DNA of 22,459 nucleotides from a virus. This document shows positions 6,176 through 22,325 of this stretch, piece by piece (positions within the stretch are counted from its first letter, which is position 1; each line of letters opens with the position of its first letter). The notes under the pieces are model-generated. The model was not told the DNA's origin. It was given only the letters and a program-made list of their open reading frames with translations, and searched no databases. A program made the position numbers and the translations under genes. The stretch spans positions 1 through 22,459 of IMG/VR virus record IMGVR_UViG_3300044630_004330; one strand, 5' to 3'.

Positions 6176-7273
6176 ATGGCCCCAAAGAAACGCAAGCCGA
6201 CAATTGGCTACCTAACATCAGACTGGGCCTGGGGTACTGACCCACTGCAACCCAATGGTTGTGCTTGGTACAGATGCAAGCTCCCCGCAGACCAACTGAA
6301 CAAACATGGATGGTTTGCCACTGTTGGTTTTCCGGGCTTCAACCCACAACGCGGGTTTGGGATGGTTGTCCCTGGAGACAAAGCTATCCATGGTTGGGAT
6401 ATTATTGTTTTCAAACTTCTAATGCAACGCGAAGTGCTTGAAGCGATGCCCCTTGCGCAAAAAATGGGACAGAAAATAGTAGTTGACGTCGATGACTGGT
6501 TTGACGGACTCGCCACAACAAATCAAGCATACAAAGCCACAGACCCAACGACTAATCCCGATAACAATAGAGATATTTACGCGCAGATAATAATGCAGGC
6601 AGACGCTGTAATCACTTCAACTCCATTCCTGTTTGACTATTATGCAGCAAAAAGAGAAAATGTTTTCATGGTCAGGAATGGAATAGACATAGAAAGATGG
6701 AAACCACGCACACCAAGAACGAATCATCGCTTAAGACTCGGGTGGGTTGGGGCTACCCCATGGCGCTCTGGTGACCTAGAGACGCTCTCATCATTTCTTG
6801 GTAAATACTTGGTTGATAGAAGAATAGGTTTTCATCACTCTGGGCATACAACAAATGGAGCTCCATCAGCAAACCGCCAACTCGGTATACCCGACAACAT
6901 AACAAGAACCCTCCCATTGGCTCCAATTTTGTCGTATCCAGGACTATTTCAACCGATAGACATTGGCATGGTGCCTCTAAACAACATTCCATTCAACCAT
7001 GCAAAATCTTTCATCAAAGGCCTTGAATATGCTGCTGCTGGTGTTCCTTTTATTTCCTCATACTCTCCAGAGTACAAAATTCTTGCCGACCAAGGAATTG
7101 GCCGTGTTGCGTATACTCCGGACGACTGGGTTCACCATTTAGACGAATTACGTCGAACCCATATCAGAAGAGACGAGGTTGGCCACAATCTTGAAATGCT
7201 GCAAAATTTCACGATGAACAAGCGCGGCGAAGATTGGGATGCAACAATGCGCGTCATCCTAGAAAAAATCTAG
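6176..7273 (+). CDS. GT-B fold glycosyltransferase (family 4-like)
   Basis: A 365-residue protein, normal length for this class. The N-terminal domain (1-165) begins with a basic leader and GYLTSDWAWG; the hinge-side motif NGIDIERWKP is at 168-177. The C-terminal nucleotide-sugar domain has LGWVGATP (188-195) and FNHAKSFIKGLEYAAAGVPF (273-292), the region carrying the Lys and Glu that contact the donor in GT4 enzymes. It should transfer a sugar from an activated donor to a surface glycan or virion protein; donor and acceptor cannot be read from sequence. It is the first gene of a six-gene cassette and has no ribosome site. Its stop codon lies within a hairpin that also covers the next gene's ribosome site. 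Confidence 0.85.
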   Translation: MAPKKRKPTIGYLTSDWAWGTDPLQPNGCAWYRCKLPADQLNKHGWFATVGFPGFNPQRGFGMVVPGDKAIHGWDIIVFKLLMQREVLEAMPLAQKMGQKIVVDVDDWFDGLATTNQAYKATDPTTNPDNNRDIYAQIIMQADAVITSTPFLFDYYAAKRENVFMVRNGIDIERWKPRTPRTNHRLRLGWVGATPWRSGDLETLSSFLGKYLVDRRIGFHHSGHTTNGAPSANRQLGIPDNITRTLPLAPILSYPGLFQPIDIGMVPLNNIPFNHAKSFIKGLEYAAAGVPFISSYSPEYKILADQGIGRVAYTPDDWVHHLDELRRTHIRRDEVGHNLEMLQNFTMNKRGEDWDATMRVILEKI

Positions 7274-7276
7274 GTG
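7258..7276 (+). promoter_or_regulatory. Hairpin covering a stop codon and the next ribosome site
   Basis: CCTAGA (7258-7263) and TCTAGG (7269-7274) form a 6-bp perfect stem around AAAAA. The second arm contains the stop TAG (7271-7273) of the first glycosyltransferase and most of the AGGTG ribosome site (7272-7276) of the second. A ribosome finishing the first gene would open it, which suggests translational coupling. Confidence 0.45.
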
Positions 7277-7281
7277 TTTCC

Positions 7282-7938
7282 ATGCAGGATATCGCCTGGA
7301 CATTTGGTGTAATAACCGTATACGAAGATAAGAACAGACTCAACGAGATACTCGACAGCATCCGAACCCTTGGAGTACCAGAGTACGAAATCTTGCTTGT
7401 TGGCGGCGGCGACTCAACCGGAATAGATGGTGGAGATATTGTCAAGATTAATTTTGACGAATCAGTCAAACCGCGATGGATTACTCGCAAAAAAAATATT
7501 CTTGTTCAAAATGCAAAGTATGAAAATATTGTACTGATGCACGACTATCACGTGTTTGACGCGAGATGGTATGAGGAGTTCAAGAACTTTGGTACAGACT
7601 GGGAAATTTGCTCTTGCCCACAGCACCTAATAAATGGCGACAGAAATCCAATGGATTGGTCGCTCTGGGACAAACCAGGACACGGTCGCGCATGGTCGCT
7701 TGACTACAACGACTGGACGCAAACTCAATACATGTATATATCTGGTGGCTTCTTTATTGTTAAAAAGCATGTGATGCTTGAAGAACCGCTTGACGAATCA
7801 CGTGGATGGAATGAGGCAGAAGACGTCGAATGGTCCATGCGTGTTCGCAGTAAGTACGTAATGAAATGCAACGGAAAAAGCGTTGTTCGTCACAATAAGT
7901 GGCATAGGCATGCAGGACCAAATCCAAATGAAAAATAA
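7282..7938 (+). CDS. GT-A fold glycosyltransferase (family 2-like)
   Basis: I place the start at ATG 7282, which follows AGGTG, not at the in-frame ATG 7234 inside the previous gene. This gives 218 residues. The N-terminus FGVITVYEDKNRLNEILDSI is a GT2-type first strand and helix. TRKKN at 68-72 corresponds to the position where GT2 enzymes have (A)RN. HDYH at 87-90 takes the place of the metal-binding DxD. GGFF (155-158) and EAEDVEW (178-184) match the acceptor loop and the catalytic E-D pair. It probably adds one sugar in the same pathway as its neighbours. The C-terminus (HNKWHRHAGPNPNEK) is short and basic. It overlaps the next gene by 11 bases. Confidence 0.8.
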   Translation: MQDIAWTFGVITVYEDKNRLNEILDSIRTLGVPEYEILLVGGGDSTGIDGGDIVKINFDESVKPRWITRKKNILVQNAKYENIVLMHDYHVFDARWYEEFKNFGTDWEICSCPQHLINGDRNPMDWSLWDKPGHGRAWSLDYNDWTQTQYMYISGGFFIVKKHVMLEEPLDESRGWNEAEDVEWSMRVRSKYVMKCNGKSVVRHNKWHRHAGPNPNEK

Positions 7939-9301
7939 CTTTCTCGTCATCTTTGACCTTGACGGTGTTTTGATTGAATCACGCGACGTTCATTACGATT
8001 CACTGAATATTGCCTTAAGTAGGGTTGATGTTAAATACGTAATTTCGCAAGAGGAACACCTATCAAAATATGACGGTCTTGGGACAACAACAAAGTTGAA
8101 GATGTTGACTGAAGAAAAAGGTCTTCCAGAATCGAAGCATCAGCAAATCTGGGAAGACAAGCAAAAAGCAACTCTAAAAATACTCTCAGATTTCCCCAAG
8201 AATTACGTAGCAATTGACATAATGCAGACCCTCAAGGAAAAGGGCTGGCGCATTGCTGTTGCCTCGAACGCCATACGAGATACGGTCATAACCGCGCTAG
8301 ATGCAATTGGTGTCCTCAAATACGTCAGCTACATAATGAGCAACGAGGACGTAAGAAACCACAAACCACACCCAGAGATGTACTGGCAATGTATGGTCTC
8401 CCTTGATGCAGGTCCTGCTAATACTATAATTATTGAGGATTCCCATATTGGCAGGGAGGGTGCGCTTAGCTCTGGCGCAAACCTTCATGCAATAAAGAAT
8501 GCTGCCGACCTTAACAAGGAACGTTTAATCCGTTTTGTTGAGGAAATAGAAAATAGGGGCAAAAAGCCTGTTGCGTGGAGGAATGAAAAAATGAATGTCT
8601 TGATACCGATGGCGGGAGCCGGCTCACGCTTCGCGCAAGCTGGATATACGTTTCCAAAACCTCTAATTGAAGTTAATGGGAAACCAATGATTCAGGTAGT
8701 TGTCGAGAACCTAAACATAGATGCGCACTTTATTTTCCTTGTACAAAAAGAGCACTACGAAAAATACAACTTAAAACAGGTTTTAGGACTCATCAAACCA
8801 GGGTGCGACATTGTCCTGGTTGATGGGATGACGGATGGCGCTGCTTGCACGACATTATTAGCATCTGGATTGATAGACAACGAAGAACCATTACTAATGG
8901 CCAACTCTGACCAGATAGTCGATTGGAATAGCAACGAGTGTCTTTACGCATTTGGGGCTGAGGGTATCGACGGTGGAATACTTACATTTAAGGCAACTCA
9001 CCCAAAGTGGTCTTACGCAAAACTTGGTGACGATGGCCTTGTGGATGAGGTTGCAGAAAAGAACCCAATTTCAGATAATGCAACTGTCGGAATTTATTAC
9101 TGGAAGCATGGCTCTGATTATGTTAAATATGCGAATCAAATGATTCAAAAAGACATCCGAACCAACAACGAGTTTTATGTTTGTCCAGTATTCAATGAAG
9201 CTATTGGGGATGGAAAAAAGATTCGAATTAAAGAAGTCCCTAAAATGTGGGGAATTGGAACGCCGGAAGACCTGAACTACTACCTGGAGAACAACAAATG
9301 A
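7928..9301 (+). CDS. HAD phosphatase fused to a sugar-nucleotidyltransferase
   Basis: I prefer ATG 7928 (457 residues), because the HAD core begins at once: DLDGV with D10 and D12 (nucleophile and acid/base), S113 in VASNA, K146 in NHKPHPE, and E170-D171 in IIEDSH. These are all four HAD motifs of the phosphoglycolate-phosphatase type. The second domain starts at M222 with MNVLIPMAGAGSRF, then PKPLIEVNGKPMI (P243-K244-P245), MANSDQIVDW as the metal-binding region, and a C-terminal NNEFYVCPVF and GIGTPEDLNYYL. That is a complete nucleotidyltransferase of the NDP-sugar pyrophosphorylase class. Inferred role: make an activated sugar or polyol (NDP-linked) for the neighbouring transferases, with the HAD domain removing a phosphate from a precursor or by-product. 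The exact substrate cannot be determined. Its last codons and the next gene's start share the junction repeated at 9893. Confidence 0.85.
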   Translation: MKNNFLVIFDLDGVLIESRDVHYDSLNIALSRVDVKYVISQEEHLSKYDGLGTTTKLKMLTEEKGLPESKHQQIWEDKQKATLKILSDFPKNYVAIDIMQTLKEKGWRIAVASNAIRDTVITALDAIGVLKYVSYIMSNEDVRNHKPHPEMYWQCMVSLDAGPANTIIIEDSHIGREGALSSGANLHAIKNAADLNKERLIRFVEEIENRGKKPVAWRNEKMNVLIPMAGAGSRFAQAGYTFPKPLIEVNGKPMIQVVVENLNIDAHFIFLVQKEHYEKYNLKQVLGLIKPGCDIVLVDGMTDGAACTTLLASGLIDNEEPLLMANSDQIVDWNSNECLYAFGAEGIDGGILTFKATHPKWSYAKLGDDGLVDEVAEKNPISDNATVGIYYWKHGSDYVKYANQMIQKDIRTNNEFYVCPVFNEAIGDGKKIRIKEVPKMWGIGTPEDLNYYLENNK

Positions 9302-9303
9302 GC
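9285..9303 (+). repeat. First copy of a 19-base gene-junction repeat
   Basis: TGGAGAACAACAAATGAGC occurs here and again at 9893-9911, spanning in both cases the C-terminal ENNK, the TGA stop, the overlapping ATG and the Ser codon of the next gene. It carries the GGAGA ribosome site. The two copies flank exactly one gene, the first methyltransferase (9298-9909). Confidence 0.85.
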
Positions 9304-9909
9304 GAGGGGTTGTTGCATAGTTTGGGGCTGAAGCATGGGACAGACAAATCACAACACTTATACATGGACGTCTATGAACGACATATCAAAAGAGAATCTG
9401 TTAAACGTCTGCTCGAGATTGGAGTGCAAGGGGGTTATTCTCTTAGGGCTTGGAGGGAATGGCTTCCAGAAGATTCATCGGTCCACGGGTGGGACATAGA
9501 CGAAATACCTCAAATAGAAGGATGCTTAGTACTAAAAGTTGACCAAGGCAATAGGGAACAAATTGAATCCGCAATAAATGGGCAAATATATGATGTGATA
9601 GTCGACGACGGTGGACATACTCCCGAATTGATAGAAACGTCTTTTTCTTTTTTATTCAAGTATTCAAAGATTTACATAATAGAAGACCTTCATGCGTGGT
9701 GGCTTGGTTACAAAAACCAAGACGAGGAAGCAACTGTAAATCTGTTGGAAAATATAGACAAAAATGGATGGGCTTCAAAATATTCACTACCTGATGAAGC
9801 AGAATATATTCAAAAAAATGCTGATGTTGTTGAGGTCTTCCATCGAGGTAGCCGAGATGCGCCACTATCAATGACGGCAGTTATTTACAACATGGAGAAC
9901 AACAAATGA
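9298..9909 (+). CDS. SAM-dependent methyltransferase (HGTDK type, sugar O-methyltransferase-like)
   Basis: I take ATG 9298, overlapping the previous stop (ATGA) and following GGAGA, giving 203 residues. The frame runs further upstream, but that part lies inside the fused HAD gene. Residues 11-17 (LKHGTDK) and 38-57 (a LLEIGV..GGYSLR..W motif) form the SAM site, VDDGGH (102-107) is the metal and catalytic motif, and YIIEDLH is at 126-132. This arrangement is that of class I methyltransferases related to CmcI/TylF and sugar O-methyltransferases in glycan clusters. O-methylation of a sugar hydroxyl, capping or modifying the glycan, is the likely role. The gene is flanked by identical 19-base junctions, so it may be an inserted module. 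Confidence 0.75.
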   Translation: MSEGLLHSLGLKHGTDKSQHLYMDVYERHIKRESVKRLLEIGVQGGYSLRAWREWLPEDSSVHGWDIDEIPQIEGCLVLKVDQGNREQIESAINGQIYDVIVDDGGHTPELIETSFSFLFKYSKIYIIEDLHAWWLGYKNQDEEATVNLLENIDKNGWASKYSLPDEAEYIQKNADVVEVFHRGSRDAPLSMTAVIYNMENNK

Positions 9910-9911
9910 GC
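9893..9911 (+). repeat. Second copy of the 19-base gene-junction repeat
   Basis: Identical to 9285-9303 over 19 bases. After one mismatch the next three bases also agree (AGG). It lies across the end of the first methyltransferase and the start of the second. Confidence 0.85.
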
Positions 9912-10613
9912 AAGGAAAAAGACGATTACCTAGGAATGCAGAATTCGTATTATGACGAATATGCATCAAAATGGTCGCTTGATTTTAGGGACCCAGTTGT
10001 CGGCTCGTACGACGCACACAACAACTGGTCAGACTATGACAATTTTTTATTCAAGGACTTTAATACAAATGGTCTTGTAGCACTTGAATATGGATGCGGA
10101 CCTGGAAGAAACTTGGTCAAGTTTGCAGATAGATTTGCTCGGGTTGATGGGATAGATATTTCTCATGTGAATATTGAAAAAGCATGCATAAATGTTAAGG
10201 CAAACAACATTGCCGAACCAAACCTGTATGTGACCAGTGGTGACAACCTATCCGCTATTGAGGATGATGTTTATGATGTTGTTTTCGCCGTAATCTGCTT
10301 TCAGCATATTTGTGTGCATAAAATTAGATTCGATATCTTGACCGATATCTATAGGGTCCTAAAGCCAGGCGGCAAGTTGTGTTTTCAGATGGGATACGGT
10401 GGCAAAGGCGAAATCCCAACTGCTGGGTACTACGACAACAACTATGATGCTGGAAGTACAAATGGTCACTCGGACGTGAGCATTACTGATGAGCAAGACC
10501 TAAAGGGAGACCTTGTGGATAAAATAGGATTTACAAACTATCGGTCAGATATTTGCGATACCGGCCCTGGTGATAATCACAAAAACTGGATATGGGTTCA
10601 GGTGCAAAAATGA
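9906..10613 (+). CDS. Class I SAM-dependent methyltransferase (Methyltransf_11/25-like)
   Basis: A 235-residue protein with ATG overlapping the preceding TGA. Motif I is ALEYGCGPGRNLVKFA (59-74), the acidic strand end is VDGIDIS (80-86), motif IV is YDVVFAVICFQHI (123-135), and motif V/VI is RVLKPGGKLCFQMGYG (150-165). This is a complete SAM-binding Rossmann domain. The N-terminal 50 residues (YYDEYASKW...YDAHNNWSDYDNFLF) presumably form the substrate lid. The substrate is unknown; its place between a sugar methyltransferase-like gene and the GDPD/GT fusion suggests glycan or activated-sugar methylation. Unlike the first methyltransferase, it has a GxGxG-type site and no VDDGGH, so the two are not recent duplicates despite identical upstream junctions. 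Confidence 0.8.
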   Translation: MSKEKDDYLGMQNSYYDEYASKWSLDFRDPVVGSYDAHNNWSDYDNFLFKDFNTNGLVALEYGCGPGRNLVKFADRFARVDGIDISHVNIEKACINVKANNIAEPNLYVTSGDNLSAIEDDVYDVVFAVICFQHICVHKIRFDILTDIYRVLKPGGKLCFQMGYGGKGEIPTAGYYDNNYDAGSTNGHSDVSITDEQDLKGDLVDKIGFTNYRSDICDTGPGDNHKNWIWVQVQK

Positions 10614-11884
10614 TTTACATATCCCACAGGGGAAATCTAAACGGTCCAAAGCCGGAACTCGAAAATCACCCAACATATATAGAGGAAGCAATTGCGCGCG
10701 GATTTGATGTTGAGGTTGATTTGTGGGTTAATGAATCAGGTGCCTTTCTAGGTCATGACGGTCCACAATATCTAGTTCCTCATGAATGGCTAATTGATAG
10801 AACTGACCAAATATGGATTCATTGTAAAAATTCAGAATCATTAGCTTTTGCCATGAGGCATAATTTGCATTGTTTTTTCCACAATACGGACGACTACACG
10901 ATTACCAGTAGGGGTTACATCTGGGCATTTCCTGGAAAGAAGAGGAGTTCGGAGAAGTGCATCAAGGTGCTTCCAGAATTATCCTGGTGGGAGATGGACC
11001 ATGATTGGAAGATTCAGTACTCAGGTGTTTGTTCGGATTTTGTTGCAGAGTTAAACAAACCCAAATACAAACTATCCGAATCACCCGTACTAAAACCAAT
11101 TGATTATGATAAGCATTTCGTCATAGGAACTCCACTAGTTGCCTGGAAGTGTGACGCCAAAGAACACATGAACTGGCTTGCCGATAAGGCCGAAATTTGC
11201 AGAAAGTTTCCAAACGTTAAATGGTTTGCCTCATTCGAGCTTGATAATAGAGGAATAGAACCATTCTCTGAAGTGATAGCAGCGCTTAAGGAGGTGAATG
11301 GAGACTACTGGACTTATTCGATAAACGATATGCAGAAGAAGGTTGAATCCGGAAATAGATGGATTCGAATAGAAACTGGAAGAAACCTAATTAGAGAATT
11401 TGCTCAAAGAAACAGAATAACCAGCGGTCATCACTGGGGTGAAGATTGCACAGAATTGAACTATGGAGTCGCGAATTACTCAGCAGTCCTATACATAGAC
11501 TCAGATATGTCTCTCGACTCTATCGCTATTGAAAAAATGCTTGAAGTGAACAGACCCCTAGTTGGGATGGATGTGCCCGCATATTGTCTATCTGGCCCAA
11601 TTGTCAATGAAAATCCAAGGATAGAAGAACACTGGACCACTGCGGGAGCACTTCTGGTTAATGCACCTGCCTTCTATGACCTCCCTTGGTCTCACAACGC
11701 ATACCTAAACCTAAGCGACGACCCAACATTCCAGTCAATGGCCGAAAGGCTTCTCCGTAGAGAGGGGACTGAGAATCTTGATTCCACTTACGGTATGACA
11801 TGGGTAAGGAAAGATGGAGAAGCAAAGCATCACGGAAGACTTGAGCCAGTAGAAAAAAGAAAAATAGCAGATAGGGATATTTAA
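10610..11884 (+). CDS. GDPD-like phosphodiesterase fused to a GT-A-like glycosyltransferase domain
   Basis: ATG 10610 (ATGA overlap, AGGTG upstream) gives 424 residues. Residues 1-125 are GDPD-like with the whole catalytic set in place: H6-R7-G8, ELEN at 16-19, E35-x-D37, and H49-D50. Residues about 168-400 resemble a GT-A nucleotide-sugar domain: TGRN (256-259) followed by AVLYIDSDM (292-300), the latter like the metal-binding D-x-D of GT2/Anp1-like enzymes, then a late WTTAGALLVNAP. Separate GDPD-like and GT proteins are common in capsule clusters; I do not recall this fusion. It may add or trim glycerol-phosphate or another phosphodiester group on a glycan. It ends the cassette; no clear terminator follows. 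Confidence 0.7.
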   Translation: MIYISHRGNLNGPKPELENHPTYIEEAIARGFDVEVDLWVNESGAFLGHDGPQYLVPHEWLIDRTDQIWIHCKNSESLAFAMRHNLHCFFHNTDDYTITSRGYIWAFPGKKRSSEKCIKVLPELSWWEMDHDWKIQYSGVCSDFVAELNKPKYKLSESPVLKPIDYDKHFVIGTPLVAWKCDAKEHMNWLADKAEICRKFPNVKWFASFELDNRGIEPFSEVIAALKEVNGDYWTYSINDMQKKVESGNRWIRIETGRNLIREFAQRNRITSGHHWGEDCTELNYGVANYSAVLYIDSDMSLDSIAIEKMLEVNRPLVGMDVPAYCLSGPIVNENPRIEEHWTTAGALLVNAPAFYDLPWSHNAYLNLSDDPTFQSMAERLLRREGTENLDSTYGMTWVRKDGEAKHHGRLEPVEKRKIADRDI

Positions 11885-11922: not shown

Positions 11923-11971
11923 TGGTCAGGTAATTTTTGGGTGGTAGAATTAGAGGTCTTTTTTAAGGAGG
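11923..11971 (+). promoter_or_regulatory. Candidate promoter and strong ribosome site for the giant surface protein
   Basis: TAGAAT (11945-11950) resembles a -10 box, with a weak TGGTCA (11923-11928) upstream. A full AAGGAGG (11965-11971) lies four bases before the ATG at 11976, the strongest ribosome site in the window. This suggests independent, high-level expression. Confidence 0.5.
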
Positions 11972-11975
11972 CCTC

Positions 11976-14900
11976 ATGTTCGTACGGCGCCGTCGCATCA
12001 ATAAACCTGCGGCCATCATGGCTGTCCCTTCAGTGTTCCTTTTGCTGGTATCAATTTTTGGCTTTTCATCCCCTGTCCAAGCCACTTTCTCCACACTTAG
12101 CCAAATAAGTGACTCTCAAGCCTTTCTCCAAGGCCAGTTTGCCGAGGTTGGCGTAAGACCAAACGGTGCCTTTGGCTCAACAAGCGTTCCTTCTGGATTT
12201 CACCAGAACTCTGGAACCTGTCTTGGCTTCCGCGTAGACCGCGCTTTTGATGGTTGGGACAACCCAGCGACTACAGACGATGGCGACTTCTTCTGTCCTG
12301 GCTCTCCGTTTGAGGGCTGGCAAATGAAGGTTGGCTCAAATCTTGCAAAGAACGATAATGGTACGACTGGCATTTCTGGTGCCGTGTCCAACCTTCAAAC
12401 TTCTGGCTCCTCACAATGTGTGTCTTGGAATAGCGCTACTGCATACAACGGCGTTTCTATAAGTCAAAGGTATTGCGTCCCAACGGATGGACAGGCACTG
12501 CATACCGACGTGACTATTAGCAATACAAGCGGTGCTGCTATTGACAACATCTACTTTGGTCGTGGGTTTGACCCAGACGACTACACCGGAACAGGAACAG
12601 TTCCTTTATGCAATGGTGTTGCAGAAGATACAAATATGTTTCAGTCATGCAATGCCGTAACGGGTCAGGGAACAGAAGCCCAAGCAACAGCGCGTTGGGG
12701 TAACGGTGCCTTTATTGCACTCCAGTCCTTTGATGCTCGCGCCCGTGTTGCTCGACAGACTGGTGGATTCTCTTCTCCTGACCCATCGGAGATTTGGACT
12801 GCTGGAGATACTTCGGCAACAACTGGAACCTACAGAGGTGACATTGGTGAGTTCTCTGCCGATGCAGGTCTTTATGTCGCGCTTAGTGTTCCAACCCTTG
12901 GTGCTGGTGCGACAACATCGTTCCGTGTTAGTTACGTTCTTTCATCGGAAGGTAATAAGGCTCCAGTTCTTGGTGCCCCAATCGCGAGCGGTATTAGCCA
13001 AACCACCGCTCATGTTTCTTCAACCATAAACCCAAAGGGTTTCTCAACTACCGCAAACCTTGTTTACTCAACTAGTTCAACTTTTTCTAACCCAACAACA
13101 GTATCCATCGGAACATTTACTGGTTCTGATGAACTCACATTTGATGTGGATATGCCAGACATAACACCAAGCACTACCTACTACGCAAAGGTTGTTGCAA
13201 CGAACGAAAAAGGCACCACTGAATCTTCTGTATTTCAAATAACAACACTCGCTGCTTCTGCGCCTACGGTTACATCAGAAGACCCAACTATTGCCATTAA
13301 TGATGGCCCGGTAACACTAAGTGGAACACTCAACCCAAATGGGTTTGCGGCTACCGCAACATTCCAATACAGCACTACACCAGACTTCTCTGGAACCGTT
13401 GTTGATATTCCGGTATCTGGAGATTTCACTGGGACATCGCCTTCAACAGTGTCGACTGTTGTATCAAGCCTCAACCTAACAACGACTTACTATTTCCGAC
13501 TCAAAGTAACCAATGCTTCTGGTTCTGCTTACGGCTCAACTATTTCTTTTGTTAATGCCGACCTAGTCGCACCAACATCACTGGTTGTTACGAGTCTTGA
13601 TGACAACACCTCGAGTGGAACTCTCCGCTGGGCAATCACCCAAGCGAATGCTACTACTGGCGGGATTTACGATGCAATCACATTTGGCGTTGACGGAACA
13701 ATCTCTCTTGGTTCTGCTCTTCCTCAAATAACACAGAACCTTACGGTCACTGGTAACGGCAGAACACAGACGATTATTGACGGACAGAATCTTTACCGTC
13801 CCTTCAATGTGGCGTCCGGTAAGTCTTTAACTGTTTCAAACATGACACTCAAACAAGGTCAGGCAACCAACGGTGGTCTTATATACAACGGCTCAGGAAC
13901 TGTAGTTGCCACGAACATCCGCTTTACGGCGATGGCTGGTGGTTCTGCTGTATTCAATAACAATAGTTGGTCAACCGCAACGTACACAAACTGCACGTTT
14001 GACTACCTTAACACTGGTATTGCTGGTGACTACGGCGACACCCCACAACTTCCAAGCGATGCAGCAAATTGGGCAGATACGCATGATTATTTATTCAACA
14101 ATAAAACCTATGTTGACAACTGCATATTCACAAACAACACCTACGGAATCAAAAACTACCGCTTCACCAAGGTGGTCAACTCGCAATTTGCAACGAATAG
14201 TTACGGTGCGAGCATAACTGGTTTGAACCGTTCACAGGTGCTGAACTCTACGTTCACTTCTAACGGTATTGGTATTTACCACAACTCCTGGATGACGGTT
14301 GGAAACAACTATGGAACAAACAACCGCTTAATCACTGGGAACACATTCAACTCAAATGGTGTGGCGATTTATCTTGACGATACGTGGAACAATGCTCGAA
14401 AGAATCAAGGTTGGTCAACCGTAACTGGGAACACTTGGGATGCTTCGGGTGTCTGGGTTCGTTACTACCAGTGGGATGGAACCACCAATGCTCAGTTCAC
14501 AGCGCGTCCATATACGACGGGAACAGCATTCGCGCAAAGCACAAACACTTTCCCAGACACGATTGGCGCACCGTCCAATCTGACTGCAACGGACACTGGC
14601 TCGGGCATACTTCTTGATTGGGATGCACCTGCATCTGGCGGTTACTCGCCCGAAAGATATGCAATCACTTGGTCTGGAAGTCTTGGCGGCGGTGGGATAG
14701 CAACAGGAAATGTTGGTGGTGCAACGGCCCTGGATACTTCAATTCTTATTTCTTACGCAACGATTTATTCGTTTGGTGTAGCAGGAGAAACATTCCCGTT
14801 CCATATTCGTTCAGATAACGATACTTTCTCAAAGTATTCTGCTAACTCCAACACTGTCTCAATGCAGGTCGGCGCTTCTGCAACTACGACTTCCAGCGTC

Positions 14901-16607
14901 CCCGATGTTCCCCTAGTTCCAGGAGTACCAACGGAGATAGTGTTACCAGAAATACCAACAACAACCATTCTAGAGACGCTGCTGCCAGAAATATTAGAGC
15001 CAATTGTAATAAGTACCACAATTCCACCAGAAGTGATAGTAACAATCCCAAGCCCATCACCTGAGTCTACCGTCCCAGTAGATGAACCAATCGATATTCC
15101 AGAACTTCCGGAGGTCGGTGAGCCAATAGCGACAGGGGACCTTGAGGATATTCTGGACACTATATTCACTCCAGACGCATCTACAGAAGAAATAACCGCG
15201 GTTCTTGATGGGCTTCTTGATGCCAAGTTGACAGGCAAGCAGTTTGACGCAGTTGTGGACGCCACTCTTGGTTCGCTTGAAGAACCGGATGCAGACGTTG
15301 GTGCCGTTGTTGATTCGTTCCTGGAAGCAGACTTGACCGATAAGGAGTTCACAAAGGTTCTTGATGCCGTGTTCTCCGAAGATGTCTCTGATGAAGTTTT
15401 CACTGAAGCACTAACAACAATGATTGATGCCGACCTTAGCGATAAGGAGTTTGACAAAGTTCTTGATGCCGCATTCTCGGAAACAACATCCCCAGAAGCG
15501 ATGGTTTCTGCACTCAGTTCAATCTTTGATGGTCCGGCAAGTGGTGAGGATATTTCAAAAGTGATGGGTGCAGTGTTTGACGAAGACATTTCTGTTGCAG
15601 ACACCATGACAGTGCTTGGCGACTTGCTTGAAACAAACTTGAGCGCGTCAGAAGCAGAAGCAGTATTTGACAATGTGTTTGACAGCGACCTCTCAGATGC
15701 AGAAACCATTGACCTCATCGTTGATGTTTTGAAAGACGGTCTAACTGCAGAGTTATTAGGCTCTGTTCTTGGTGCAGTCTTTGACGAAGAAGTAAGCACC
15801 GAGGTTTTAATTGAAACATTCACCGCTGTTTTGGATGGTGAACTAAACGCCGAATCAATCGGAGTAATCGTGGATGTGTTGGAATCGGACACAATTACGA
15901 GCGAGCAGGTTGGACAAGTAGTCACGTTAGTAATTGAACAAGAAGGCGGAATTGAATCAGGCCAAGCAACAGAACTTGCAACGAGTGCAAAGGTTCTGGA
16001 AAGCATTGACGGAGAACAAGCATTGGCAGTGTTTGCCGCAATTGTGGTATCTGAAGTTTCAGCAGAATCAGGTGCAGCTATTGCGGAAGCTCTTGTCGAG
16101 GCGCCAACCGAAGTCAAAGAATCCTTTGAAGAAGAGATAAATGTGTTCGCTGGAGTGTTCGATACTTACGAGCCATTAGGTTCAACTATCAATGTTGGGC
16201 AAAGACGAAGCGTTATTGCGGTAAACTTGGTGACTAGCACTGTGGCTCTAGCGGCTGCTGCTGGTGCAATACCAACCCCAGGTTCCAGTCCATCTGCGCC
16301 AAGACAAGATGTTGCGGTCCGAAAGGAAGAGGAGCAAGAGGAAGGCGGAGCAATCGAAGGCGAAGGCCCAGATTGGATTAAGCGGATATCTATTTACAAA
16401 TACGAGGATGGAGTGAGAGTTATGGACTGGAAGAACTTTACAAGAAAGTTTGTTTATGGAATTTTGGCATCAGGGTTCACCCTTGCTGGCGCAACAGTCA
16501 TGTACTTCACCCTTTCTGGTCTGACGCAGCAAATTGCCCTTTGGGGAACAATCCTTGCATTCACTGGTTCCATGTACCTCCACATGAAAGAACCAGACTC
16601 AGAGTAG
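11976..16607 (+). CDS. Giant secreted, membrane-anchored surface protein with Fn3-like, CSLREA-like, beta-helix and helical-repeat regions
   Basis: A 1543-residue protein. Residues 1-36 are a signal peptide (basic RRRR start, hydrophobic core, PVQA before the cut). Then: a Cys-containing beta domain (37-327); two fibronectin-III-like domains (about 328-425 and 426-525); a CSLREA-like motif with SGTLRWAITQAN (547-558); a right-handed beta-helix rich in Asn-turn repeats (about 560-860); a third Fn3-like domain (863-965); a Pro/Thr-rich stalk (966-1050); about 13 acidic 17-residue helical repeats (1052-1330); a hydrophobic stretch (1413-1433); and two C-terminal membrane helices (about 1492-1512 and 1516-1537). 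It should sit on the cell surface. From memory, unchecked, aquatic actinobacterial surface proteins have similar C-termini (FGG..D.Y.P.GS...V.QRR). Host origin is likely. Role unknown: adhesion, shielding or exclusion. Confidence 0.8.
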   Translation: MFVRRRRINKPAAIMAVPSVFLLLVSIFGFSSPVQATFSTLSQISDSQAFLQGQFAEVGVRPNGAFGSTSVPSGFHQNSGTCLGFRVDRAFDGWDNPATTDDGDFFCPGSPFEGWQMKVGSNLAKNDNGTTGISGAVSNLQTSGSSQCVSWNSATAYNGVSISQRYCVPTDGQALHTDVTISNTSGAAIDNIYFGRGFDPDDYTGTGTVPLCNGVAEDTNMFQSCNAVTGQGTEAQATARWGNGAFIALQSFDARARVARQTGGFSSPDPSEIWTAGDTSATTGTYRGDIGEFSADAGLYVALSVPTLGAGATTSFRVSYVLSSEGNKAPVLGAPIASGISQTTAHVSSTINPKGFSTTANLVYSTSSTFSNPTTVSIGTFTGSDELTFDVDMPDITPSTTYYAKVVATNEKGTTESSVFQITTLAASAPTVTSEDPTIAINDGPVTLSGTLNPNGFAATATFQYSTTPDFSGTVVDIPVSGDFTGTSPSTVSTVVSSLNLTTTYYFRLKVTNASGSAYGSTISFVNADLVAPTSLVVTSLDDNTSSGTLRWAITQANATTGGIYDAITFGVDGTISLGSALPQITQNLTVTGNGRTQTIIDGQNLYRPFNVASGKSLTVSNMTLKQGQATNGGLIYNGSGTVVATNIRFTAMAGGSAVFNNNSWSTATYTNCTFDYLNTGIAGDYGDTPQLPSDAANWADTHDYLFNNKTYVDNCIFTNNTYGIKNYRFTKVVNSQFATNSYGASITGLNRSQVLNSTFTSNGIGIYHNSWMTVGNNYGTNNRLITGNTFNSNGVAIYLDDTWNNARKNQGWSTVTGNTWDASGVWVRYYQWDGTTNAQFTARPYTTGTAFAQSTNTFPDTIGAPSNLTATDTGSGILLDWDAPASGGYSPERYAITWSGSLGGGGIATGNVGGATALDTSILISYATIYSFGVAGETFPFHIRSDNDTFSKYSANSNTVSMQVGASATTTSSVPDVPLVPGVPTEIVLPEIPTTTILETLLPEILEPIVISTTIPPEVIVTIPSPSPESTVPVDEPIDIPELPEVGEPIATGDLEDILDTIFTPDASTEEITAVLDGLLDAKLTGKQFDAVVDATLGSLEEPDADVGAVVDSFLEADLTDKEFTKVLDAVFSEDVSDEVFTEALTTMIDADLSDKEFDKVLDAAFSETTSPEAMVSALSSIFDGPASGEDISKVMGAVFDEDISVADTMTVLGDLLETNLSASEAEAVFDNVFDSDLSDAETIDLIVDVLKDGLTAELLGSVLGAVFDEEVSTEVLIETFTAVLDGELNAESIGVIVDVLESDTITSEQVGQVVTLVIEQEGGIESGQATELATSAKVLESIDGEQALAVFAAIVVSEVSAESGAAIAEALVEAPTEVKESFEEEINVFAGVFDTYEPLGSTINVGQRRSVIAVNLVTSTVALAAAAGAIPTPGSSPSAPRQDVAVRKEEEQEEGGAIEGEGPDWIKRISIYKYEDGVRVMDWKNFTRKFVYGILASGFTLAGATVMYFTLSGLTQQIALWGTILAFTGSMYLHMKEPDSE
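15129..15966 (+). repeat. Coding region of 17-residue acidic helical repeats
   Basis: Within the giant surface protein, about 13 units of 17 residues follow each other, for example LTDKEFTKVLDAVFSED, VSDEVFTEALTTMIDAD and LSDKEFDKVLDAAFSET. Each has an (L/V/I)(S/T) start, then hydrophobics at fixed positions, then an acidic end. At the DNA level, units one and three above share long runs (GATAAGGAGTT, CTTGATGCCG), so recent duplication is likely for those; the others have diverged. Confidence 0.8.
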
Positions 16608-16691: not shown

Positions 16692-17444
16692 ATGAACAAA
16701 CTTGCATGGGACTACATCGTTCCAATGGCTATGCCTGCCGACTTGAAAGGGGTTGAACCTGGAAAACTGCCCGAATCATTGCTCAGAGCAATCTCATCTG
16801 GGGGAAAACTCCATCACCGAGCCGCAGACGCGTGGAACGCAATGGTTGCGAAAGCCAAAGCAGACGGAGTCGAGCTTAAACCCACGAGTTCCGGCGATTT
16901 ATATCGCACATACGAGAGCCAACTGGCGGGCTTCAAGCAGCGCTACGTTCTGGAACCAGTTGCAGGAACAAGCACTAAAACGTTCGAAGGAAAAACCTGG
17001 TATCTAAAAAAGGGTATGGCCATGCTGGCGACACCGGGTAAGTCGAATCATAATCTCGGTTTGGCCATTGATATTGCTAGCGCATCAGAGCCAAAGCGAC
17101 TGAATTGGCTTGTTGCAAATGTCAAAGATTTTGGCTTCAGTTGGGAAGTTGTTCCAAGTGAGCCATGGCATATACGCCTCGTAACTGGTGACAAGCCAAC
17201 ACCGGCCGTAGTCGCGTTTACTGGTGGCGCTGCCCCAGTGGTCAATCTGAACACAGCCCCACCCATCAACGACCACAAAGCCCTACAGGGAGCCCTGAAG
17301 GCAAAGGGTTTCTACAAGGGTGAAATCAACGGTCAGAAGGACGCCGCAACCGATGCTGCGATAAAAGCATTCAAGGTTGCCAACAAGCTTCCTGCAGATT
17401 CTGTTGTGGGTCCAAAAGTTAAACAAATTCTCGGACTCGGCTGA
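16692..17444 (+). CDS. Endolysin: M15 D-Ala-D-Ala carboxypeptidase-type peptidase plus peptidoglycan-binding domain
   Basis: A 250-residue protein, ATG with GGAGA nine bases upstream. The peptidase domain (about 25-165) has the VanY/M15 zinc site: H120 in SNHNLGLAID with D127, and H160 in EPWH with catalytic E157. Residues 193-248 form a PG_binding_1-type domain (LQGALKAKGFYKG, then KAFKVANKLPADSVVGPKV). There is no signal peptide, so export needs a holin. It cleaves peptide cross-links in the cell wall at the end of infection. It starts the plus-strand lysis block, and its TGA overlaps the next ATG (TGATG). A linker rich in Pro/Thr/Asn joins the domains. Confidence 0.9.
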   Translation: MNKLAWDYIVPMAMPADLKGVEPGKLPESLLRAISSGGKLHHRAADAWNAMVAKAKADGVELKPTSSGDLYRTYESQLAGFKQRYVLEPVAGTSTKTFEGKTWYLKKGMAMLATPGKSNHNLGLAIDIASASEPKRLNWLVANVKDFGFSWEVVPSEPWHIRLVTGDKPTPAVVAFTGGAAPVVNLNTAPPINDHKALQGALKAKGFYKGEINGQKDAATDAAIKAFKVANKLPADSVVGPKVKQILGLG

Positions 17445-21701: not shown

Positions 21702-22325
21702 ATGACAACAATCATTGGAATACAGGGGGATGGATTCGCGTTTGCGTGTGTTGATTCCCAGGTTTCCGATGTTGACAACAATGGATACGCAACCCAGATA
21801 GCAACTCTCCGCGAGTCATCGTCAAAACTTAGCTACAACGGTAGATACCTTCTTGGGGCAGCCGGAGATGTAAGGGCAATAAACATCCTGCATCACGCTT
21901 TTAACCCTCCAGTCTGTCCACCGACTTTAAGGGGAAAGAAGCTTGACCACTTCGTTACAGTTAAATTTATCCCGTCGTTAAGGGAATGCTTCGAAACACA
22001 CGGCTACAACTCTCCACAGAACGAGAACTCAGAGCACGTCGCAGAACACGGTTCCGTTATTTTTATGGCAGTCAATGGGACGATATACATAATCGACGGT
22101 GACTACTCATGGATATCTGACATGAATGGCGTATATGCAATAGGTACCGGCGCGCAATATGCCCTGGGAGCCCTGCATGTATTGATGCCAAAGACAAAGA
22201 TGACAATAACCCTTGCCAAAAGGATAGGCATTAAGGCCATATCGACGGCCGCTAGATACGACCCGTACACGGGCGCGCCGTATCACTCATTCTCTACAGG
22301 TTCCGAGAAGAAGCCAAAACCTTAA
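21702..22325 (+). CDS. Proteasome-beta/HslV-like Ntn hydrolase
   Basis: A 207-residue protein with GAGGAA eight bases before the ATG. After removal of the initiator Met, Thr2 becomes the N-terminal residue of TTIIGIQGDGFAFACVDSQV. This matches the HslV/20S-beta start: Thr1 nucleophile, then Asp at position 17 exactly. Lys41 of SSKLSYNGRYLLGAAGD fits the catalytic Lys33 position with an eight-residue insertion, and GAAGD matches the Gly47 region. A later IGTGAQYALGAL resembles the conserved GSG..YA.GAL of proteasome beta subunits. It has no propeptide (like HslV, unlike actinobacterial PrcB). No ATPase partner lies in the window. Possible roles: prohead or other virion protease, or interference with the host Pup-proteasome system. 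The active site looks complete. Confidence 0.8.
   Translation: MTTIIGIQGDGFAFACVDSQVSDVDNNGYATQIATLRESSSKLSYNGRYLLGAAGDVRAINILHHAFNPPVCPPTLRGKKLDHFVTVKFIPSLRECFETHGYNSPQNENSEHVAEHGSVIFMAVNGTIYIIDGDYSWISDMNGVYAIGTGAQYALGALHVLMPKTKMTITLAKRIGIKAISTAARYDPYTGAPYHSFSTGSEKKPKP

Follow-up and report, generated by a model that had tools for sequence, protein, structure and literature searches.

A 22,459-base viral record from IMG/VR (IMGVR_UViG_3300044630_004330, positions 1 to 22,459; hereafter the window) contains an uninterrupted reading frame of 1543 aa at positions 11976-16607, as an earlier note on this DNA had placed it. Judged by sequence, the product appears to be one of a large and previously undescribed family of adhesin-like proteins that freshwater actinophages encode and that are exported and anchored. 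Comparison across the family revealed an export signal, a C-terminal anchor, modular exchange of an N-terminal head domain, a single conserved gene copy and a distribution among phages. We consider it very probable that the protein is displayed on the infected cell.

Table 1. Features of the surface-protein gene and its flanks in the window
Feature	Position	Strand	Basis
Glycan-modification cassette	6176..11884	+	Directly 5'; glycosyltransferase-like, HAD and sugar nucleotidyltransferase, methyltransferases
Extended -10-like element TGNTAGAATTNGNGG	11942..11956	+	20-34 nt 5' of the start codon
Shine-Dalgarno TAAGGAGG	11964..11971	+	Longest anti-SD match among the window's 22 candidate starts
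Signal peptide, residues 1-36	11976..12083	+	Basic n-region, hydrophobic core, VQA↓TF
Exchangeable head domain, residues 37-330	12084..12965	+	Homologues in phage loci, distant relatives on other anchors
Two FN3-like domains, residues 331-530	12966..13565	+	Weak Pfam FN3/PhoD_N matches; netrin-receptor FN3 match
Probable right-handed beta-helix, residues 531-862	13566..14561	+	Sequence pattern; separate module under unrelated heads
Third FN3-like domain, residues 863-967	14562..14876	+	Pfam fn3 E 2.9e-4
Thr/Pro/Glu-rich linker, residues 968-1055	14877..15140	+	Composition; length differs among relatives
Acidic stalk, 17-residue helical repeats, residues 1056-1330	15141..15965	+	Periodicity test
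Conserved C-terminal anchor domain, residues 1335-1543	15978..16604	+	A1 profile
Hydrophobic segment 1, residues 1412-1432, predicted stop-transfer	16209..16271	+	Conserved, 3' of VGxRR
Hydrophobic segment 2, residues 1492-1513	16449..16514	+	Hydropathy, conserved
Hydrophobic segment 3, residues 1518-1536	16527..16583	+	Hydropathy, conserved
VanY-type peptidoglycan peptidase with PG-binding domain, endolysin candidate	16692..17444	+	Pfam VanY 2.3e-15, PG_binding_1 4.9e-10

Export signal, stalk and anchor

The signal peptide described in the earlier note was present, with an RRRR n-region, a hydrophobic core starting at residue 14 and a VQA↓TF cleavage motif. An export signal with an AxA-type site was found in 55/55 distinct complete members of the family, in the same organisation. 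Upstream of the gene, TAAGGAGG is separated from the ATG by 4 nt, and comparison of all candidate starts bore out the claim that this is the strongest ribosome site in the window. A second element, TGNTAGAATTNGNGG, is conserved 5' of those relatives that share the window's signal-peptide type. It matched exactly once per genome, and always at the surface-protein gene, in 6/6 phages. The element resembles the extended -10 sequence of a host sigma-70 promoter, and because it occurs once in each of these genomes, at this gene, the gene seems to be served by a promoter of its own, of the host-polymerase type. Such a promoter would permit early expression too, and hence superinfection exclusion.

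The FN3-like domains claimed previously gave Pfam matches that were weak yet repeated (E 2.9e-4 at residues 865-901 and 1e-3 at residues 391-431, both under the gathering scores), and the netrin-receptor FN3 match (E 0.008) spanned residues 381-517. The proposed beta-helix stood in part: the Asn-rich, beta-helix-like pattern of residues 531-862 fits a right-handed beta-helix, which we regard as probable, but the best PDB sequence match to this region was weak (E 0.36). The label CSLREA-like could not be confirmed, because NCBIfam gave no match in the window protein even at E 0.1. The acidic 17-residue repeats were clearly supported, with a hydropathy autocorrelation in the stalk of 0.50 at lags 17 and 34 compared to a permutation 99th percentile of 0.16. 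The stalk contains 68 acidic and 8 basic residues among 275, and the number of repeats differs between relatives.

The three C-terminal hydrophobic segments are likewise present in the window protein and conserved across the family. The anchor domain occurs in all 55 distinct complete members, and in each of them a hydrophobic segment comes after a VGxRR-type motif. A subgroup of one-segment variants (among L102-L117, e.g. L102, L103, L110, L114) stops after segment 1 and closes on a basic tail (for example RQRRARQRARVK); members outside this subgroup have two further hydrophobic segments after the first. A strongly basic tail following a single segment is what classically marks a membrane protein as N-out, C-in, and the conserved segments, considered with the basic-tail variants, suggest a membrane anchor. 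The window protein sequence contains no LPXTG sortase motif, and it gave no Pfam match to an autotransporter C-terminal beta-barrel. In one relative (L096:6566-10495), a single in-frame TAA lies within the anchor domain, such that this member stops after the first hydrophobic segment.

Exchange, fold and other anchors of the head domain

The window head is 71-80% identical in ~40 phage loci, and a module table across the family revealed a mosaic of signal peptide, head, beta-helix and anchor. L079 has the head in common with the window (79%) but not the signal peptide, while in L017 the signal peptide (91%) and the anchor (92%) correspond and the head does not. In L078 the beta-helix is retained (77%) and the head is a legume-type lectin (Pfam Lectin_L-type 4e-41). 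The head of L086 matches PA14 (7.5e-12) and GLEYA, and those of L106 and L115 match PA14; the window head itself had no Pfam match to a lectin family (L-type, PA14/GLEYA). Exchange was also evident between close relatives. In L005 and L033, c31, c32, c11 and VanY are 98-99% identical and the heads 19%, and L005, L026, L033 and L020, which have c30-c32 and c11 in common, encode at least three head types. When head swaps were compared with fibre similarity, the tail fibres were found to differ as well (59-73%), making this test of receptor matching suggestive rather than decisive. Surface parts under diversifying selection typically show this kind of head exchange on a kept anchor.

The head domain has no Pfam name. 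A model of the homologous head from L176, based on an alignment with 32 diverse rows, was all-beta (pLDDT 88.7, pTM 0.90), and the PDB structures that it matched best were the supersandwich domains found in glycosidases and sugar phosphorylases (E 4e-7, TMq 0.5-0.67). The model of the window head itself, from a shallow alignment, had a pLDDT of 47 and was set aside. Carried over from the confident L176 model, of a homologue at ~21% identity, the fold of the window head would be a galactose-mutarotase-like supersandwich. Such a fold favours sugar binding without proving it; it also occurs in proteins with another main role, and one of these, the YidC periplasmic domain, was among the PDB fold matches of the L176 head. 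We consider it rather likely that the window head binds carbohydrate. The modelled head also matched in fold (E 1.6e-11, 20% identity) a BFVD entry from an uncultured Caudovirales phage, A0A6J5P167 ('Fibronectin type III'), which at 1422 aa is near the window protein in length and is annotated by FN3 only.

Distant relatives of the head occur on different anchors. L175 carries a window-type head on an Autotransporter barrel (2.7e-19), and the 642-kb phage LR756502, the only deposited phage matching the window head, carries one on a T9SS signal (CHU_C 7e-17). The barrel-type head had no match among deposited phages. The two head groups were linked by tblastn (E 1e-12 to LR756502, against the whole phage collection) and by hhalign (probability 96%). 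Among complete proteins with the distant head, 45/48 end in F or W, as in outer-membrane barrels. The phage contigs encoding them reach 364 kb, with an above-threshold terminase in 7/18 tested. In L177, a head protein is encoded between CsgF (1.3e-15) and CsgG (4e-56), beside a curlin-repeat protein and FecR.

Two phage curli operons (L177:3198-8142 and L178:5302-10219; CsgF, CsgG, curlin repeat, FecR) contain a relative of the window head, as an extra protein between CsgF and CsgG with a signal peptide, the head and an outer-membrane barrel. The portions of the published phage curli descriptions available to us make no mention of it. A different arrangement was found in L183 (4468-6855), where a subtilase joined to the head, without an export signal, is encoded in a T4-like structural region and has terminase and tail-sheath genes as neighbours. 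Given this location, the head may at least once have been placed on a virion.

The head was also found in ~1% of sampled cellular genomes (Pseudomonadota 5/399, Bacteroidota 3/297), while plasmids gave no match. The sampled cells mount it as phages do, on Autotransporter (5.9e-28), T9SS (CHU_C 2.2e-9) or PEP-CTERM-like (1.5e-3) anchors. These bacterial adhesins share with the window protein a signal peptide, an N-terminal head and a surface-anchoring C-terminus; the window anchor differs in consisting of a stalk and membrane segments, so far found in phages only. Surface-type proteins of ~1000-2200 aa with a window-type head were observed in four bacterial genomes (L270, L272, L273, L274). In a tree, the phage head from Bacteroidota groups with a cellular one from the same phylum (0.93) and the actinophage heads form a separate long branch, which, with thin sampling, suggests that phage heads arose from separate captures.

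Distribution and gene neighbourhood

Relatives of the window protein are encoded by 48 IMG/VR loci (tblastn E-values from the related-locus search refer to candidate stretches), and the C-terminal 215 residues, the anchor domain, were detected in at least 404 IMG/VR viral contigs. A pattern scan of 84,980 host genomes for the anchor, which may miss diverged forms, including in the likely host phylum (actinobacteria), returned two matches. One of them, L051 (JAURLY010000091.1), is filed under a gammaproteobacterial MAG and shows the full phage gene order c1, c2, c4, c8, c5, c12, c6, c3, which makes it clearly a misbinned phage contig. The other, L052 (CALKUW010000343.1) from a Flavobacteriales MAG, combines a short anchor match with one phage-type neighbour gene and is likely misbinned as well. 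These counts leave two claims of the earlier note unsupported: acquisition from a host, at least a recent one, and a C-terminus resembling surface proteins of aquatic actinobacteria. Within these searches the anchor is phage-specific, and the head alone has cellular relatives.

The phages that carry the gene are large, with several contigs of 140-216 kb, and each record contains exactly one copy (17/17). WhiB, a regulator known only from actinobacteria and their phages, is encoded by 13/15 carriers tested, and terminase by 12/14; these results indicate that the carriers are real actinophages. No tyrosine integrase was found among 15 carrier records, and a serine recombinase was detected in 1/14, DSL-LC01. 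This complete circular actinophage genome is the only deposited phage with the anchor domain. Its protein WJZ48438.1 (PMC10611076) shares the anchor domain and signal peptide with the window protein, has a different head and is annotated as hypothetical. The window protein had no PHROG match, no named virion family was found among 33 family members, and literature searches turned up no account of a comparable lectin or adhesin in an actinophage.

The order of the glycan-modification cassette is kept in L012, L020, L033 and L103. In the window, this cassette includes a fusion (7883-9301) of a HAD-type sugar phosphatase with a domain like sugar-1-phosphate nucleotidyltransferases; an alginate lyase assignment for 6176-7273 (E 0.005) was dismissed as sub-threshold. 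Positions 10592-11884 encode a 430-aa protein (PHROG 34507), the start of which (MIYISHRGNLNG...) we take to be like glycerophosphodiester or PI-PLC-type phosphodiesterases. The VanY-type gene is the next gene 3' and is retained as a neighbour in many relatives, and small membrane proteins are also encoded downstream of the surface-protein gene. The opposite strand carries tail-fibre genes 6 kb upstream. In L031 (3037-9930), the surface-protein gene directly follows the genes of two large proteins, of 1627 and 622 aa, which match VanY weakly. Elsewhere in the window, positions 21702-22325 encode a Proteasome-fold/HslV-type peptidase (Pfam Proteasome 3e-6, PHROG 1040).

Proposed role on the infected cell

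We propose a model in which the infected actinobacterium would export the phage-encoded protein through the general secretion pathway and the C-terminal anchor would fix it in the cytoplasmic membrane. The acidic helical stalk, the flexible linker and the FN3/beta-helix spacers would span the cell wall, with the exchangeable head, most likely glycan-binding, exposed outside. Infected cells could then stick to their siblings, to particles or to surface glycans, and their adhesion would set progeny free beside new hosts. The model infers topology (from hydropathy), surface exposure, glycan binding by the window head, timing and benefit. 'Sibling capture' of this kind has been proposed for phage curli (PMC7029224, PMC9599517). 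That adhesion is the main purpose of the displayed protein has, in our estimate, close to an even chance, and we favour adhesion or sibling capture over receptor masking. Support comes from lectin and flocculin-like heads, the long stalk and the curli co-location of distant relatives. Against adhesion counts the curli-bearing methylophage Melnitz, which caused no clumping in culture (PMC9004378).

The protein might instead act in receptor masking or superinfection exclusion, its head binding host surface glycan in cis, shielding the receptor from competing phages and keeping progeny off debris; we regard this as possible but rather unlikely. To our knowledge, the known exclusion proteins are all far smaller than a long stalked protein of >1000 residues, and both size and stalk argue against such a role. 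Heads differ fast between near-identical phages, as receptor-tracking parts do, yet they switch without a matching wholesale switch of the tail-fibre set, although the fibres also differ. Early expression at a high level would be permitted by the dedicated host-RNAP-like promoter element and strong SD, and the adjoining glycan-modification cassette is also consistent with masking, but the curli co-location in distant relatives points to adhesion. Masking has a precedent in T5 Llp, acting on FhuA (PMC9586334), and a counterpart in the S-layer hypothesis for Melnitz (PMC9004378). If the masking reading is right, the window protein would resemble Llp in being phage-encoded, exported and active at the host surface. 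The two differ in kind, Llp being a small lipoprotein whose receptor is known and the window protein a giant, modular, adhesin-like one.

A function in lysis or at the cell wall, with the anchored protein positioning or timing the adjacent VanY peptidase and holin-like genes, appears improbable. VanY-type genes do adjoin in several lineages, 3' in the window, L012 and L033 and 5' in L031 (weak VanY matches), but they are non-adjacent in L008 and DSL-LC01. Moreover, the surface-protein gene has its own promoter-like element and SD, and swappable lectin heads would be senseless for the timing of lysis.

We think it very improbable that this is a virion protein, such as a minor tail or head-fibre adhesin, despite the upstream tail-fibre genes and the L183 fusion. 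Export signals in every complete member, the conserved membrane anchor, lectin heads in relatives, host-type anchors in distant relatives and the failure to match a PHROG or virion family agree with the earlier description of an envelope adhesin that is not part of the virion. Least probable of all is that a host surface protein was captured recently, which we hold to be very unlikely. Cellular relatives of the head do occur on surface anchors in Pseudomonadota and Bacteroidota, but the window head lacks a plasmid match and forms its own long phage branch, and set against at least 404 viral contigs the host-genome matches to the anchor number two, one of them clearly phage.

Adhesion by a displayed protein has a parallel in the phage curli (type VIII secretion) of pelagiphages and methylophages, where an aquatic phage likewise encodes an exported adhesive structure of the host surface (PMC7029224, PMC9599517, PMC9004378). 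The window gene differs from these: it encodes one membrane-anchored protein with a monoderm-type architecture, lacks amyloid repeats as well as CsgG/CsgF, and belongs to a family in which heads are traded for unrelated lectins. Tentatively, and with less than even confidence, we suggest a general display system in which phages of several phyla would mount one pool of glycan-binding heads on the anchor routes of their host clades, and adhesive infected cells would steer progeny. The routes would comprise a membrane stalk in actinobacteria, an autotransporter or curli-linked barrel in proteobacteria and a type IX signal in Bacteroidota.

The family occurs in virulent-looking phages of freshwater actinobacteria, and the head is common across phyla and re-anchored per host. 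Because distant viruses put the same head on host-specific anchors, host-surface remodelling looks like a widespread viral strategy. If display is confirmed, 'sibling capture' would become directly testable, the presence of a costly giant single-copy gene would be explained, and the remodelling of the host surface by lytic phages would gain a concrete, diversifying molecule.
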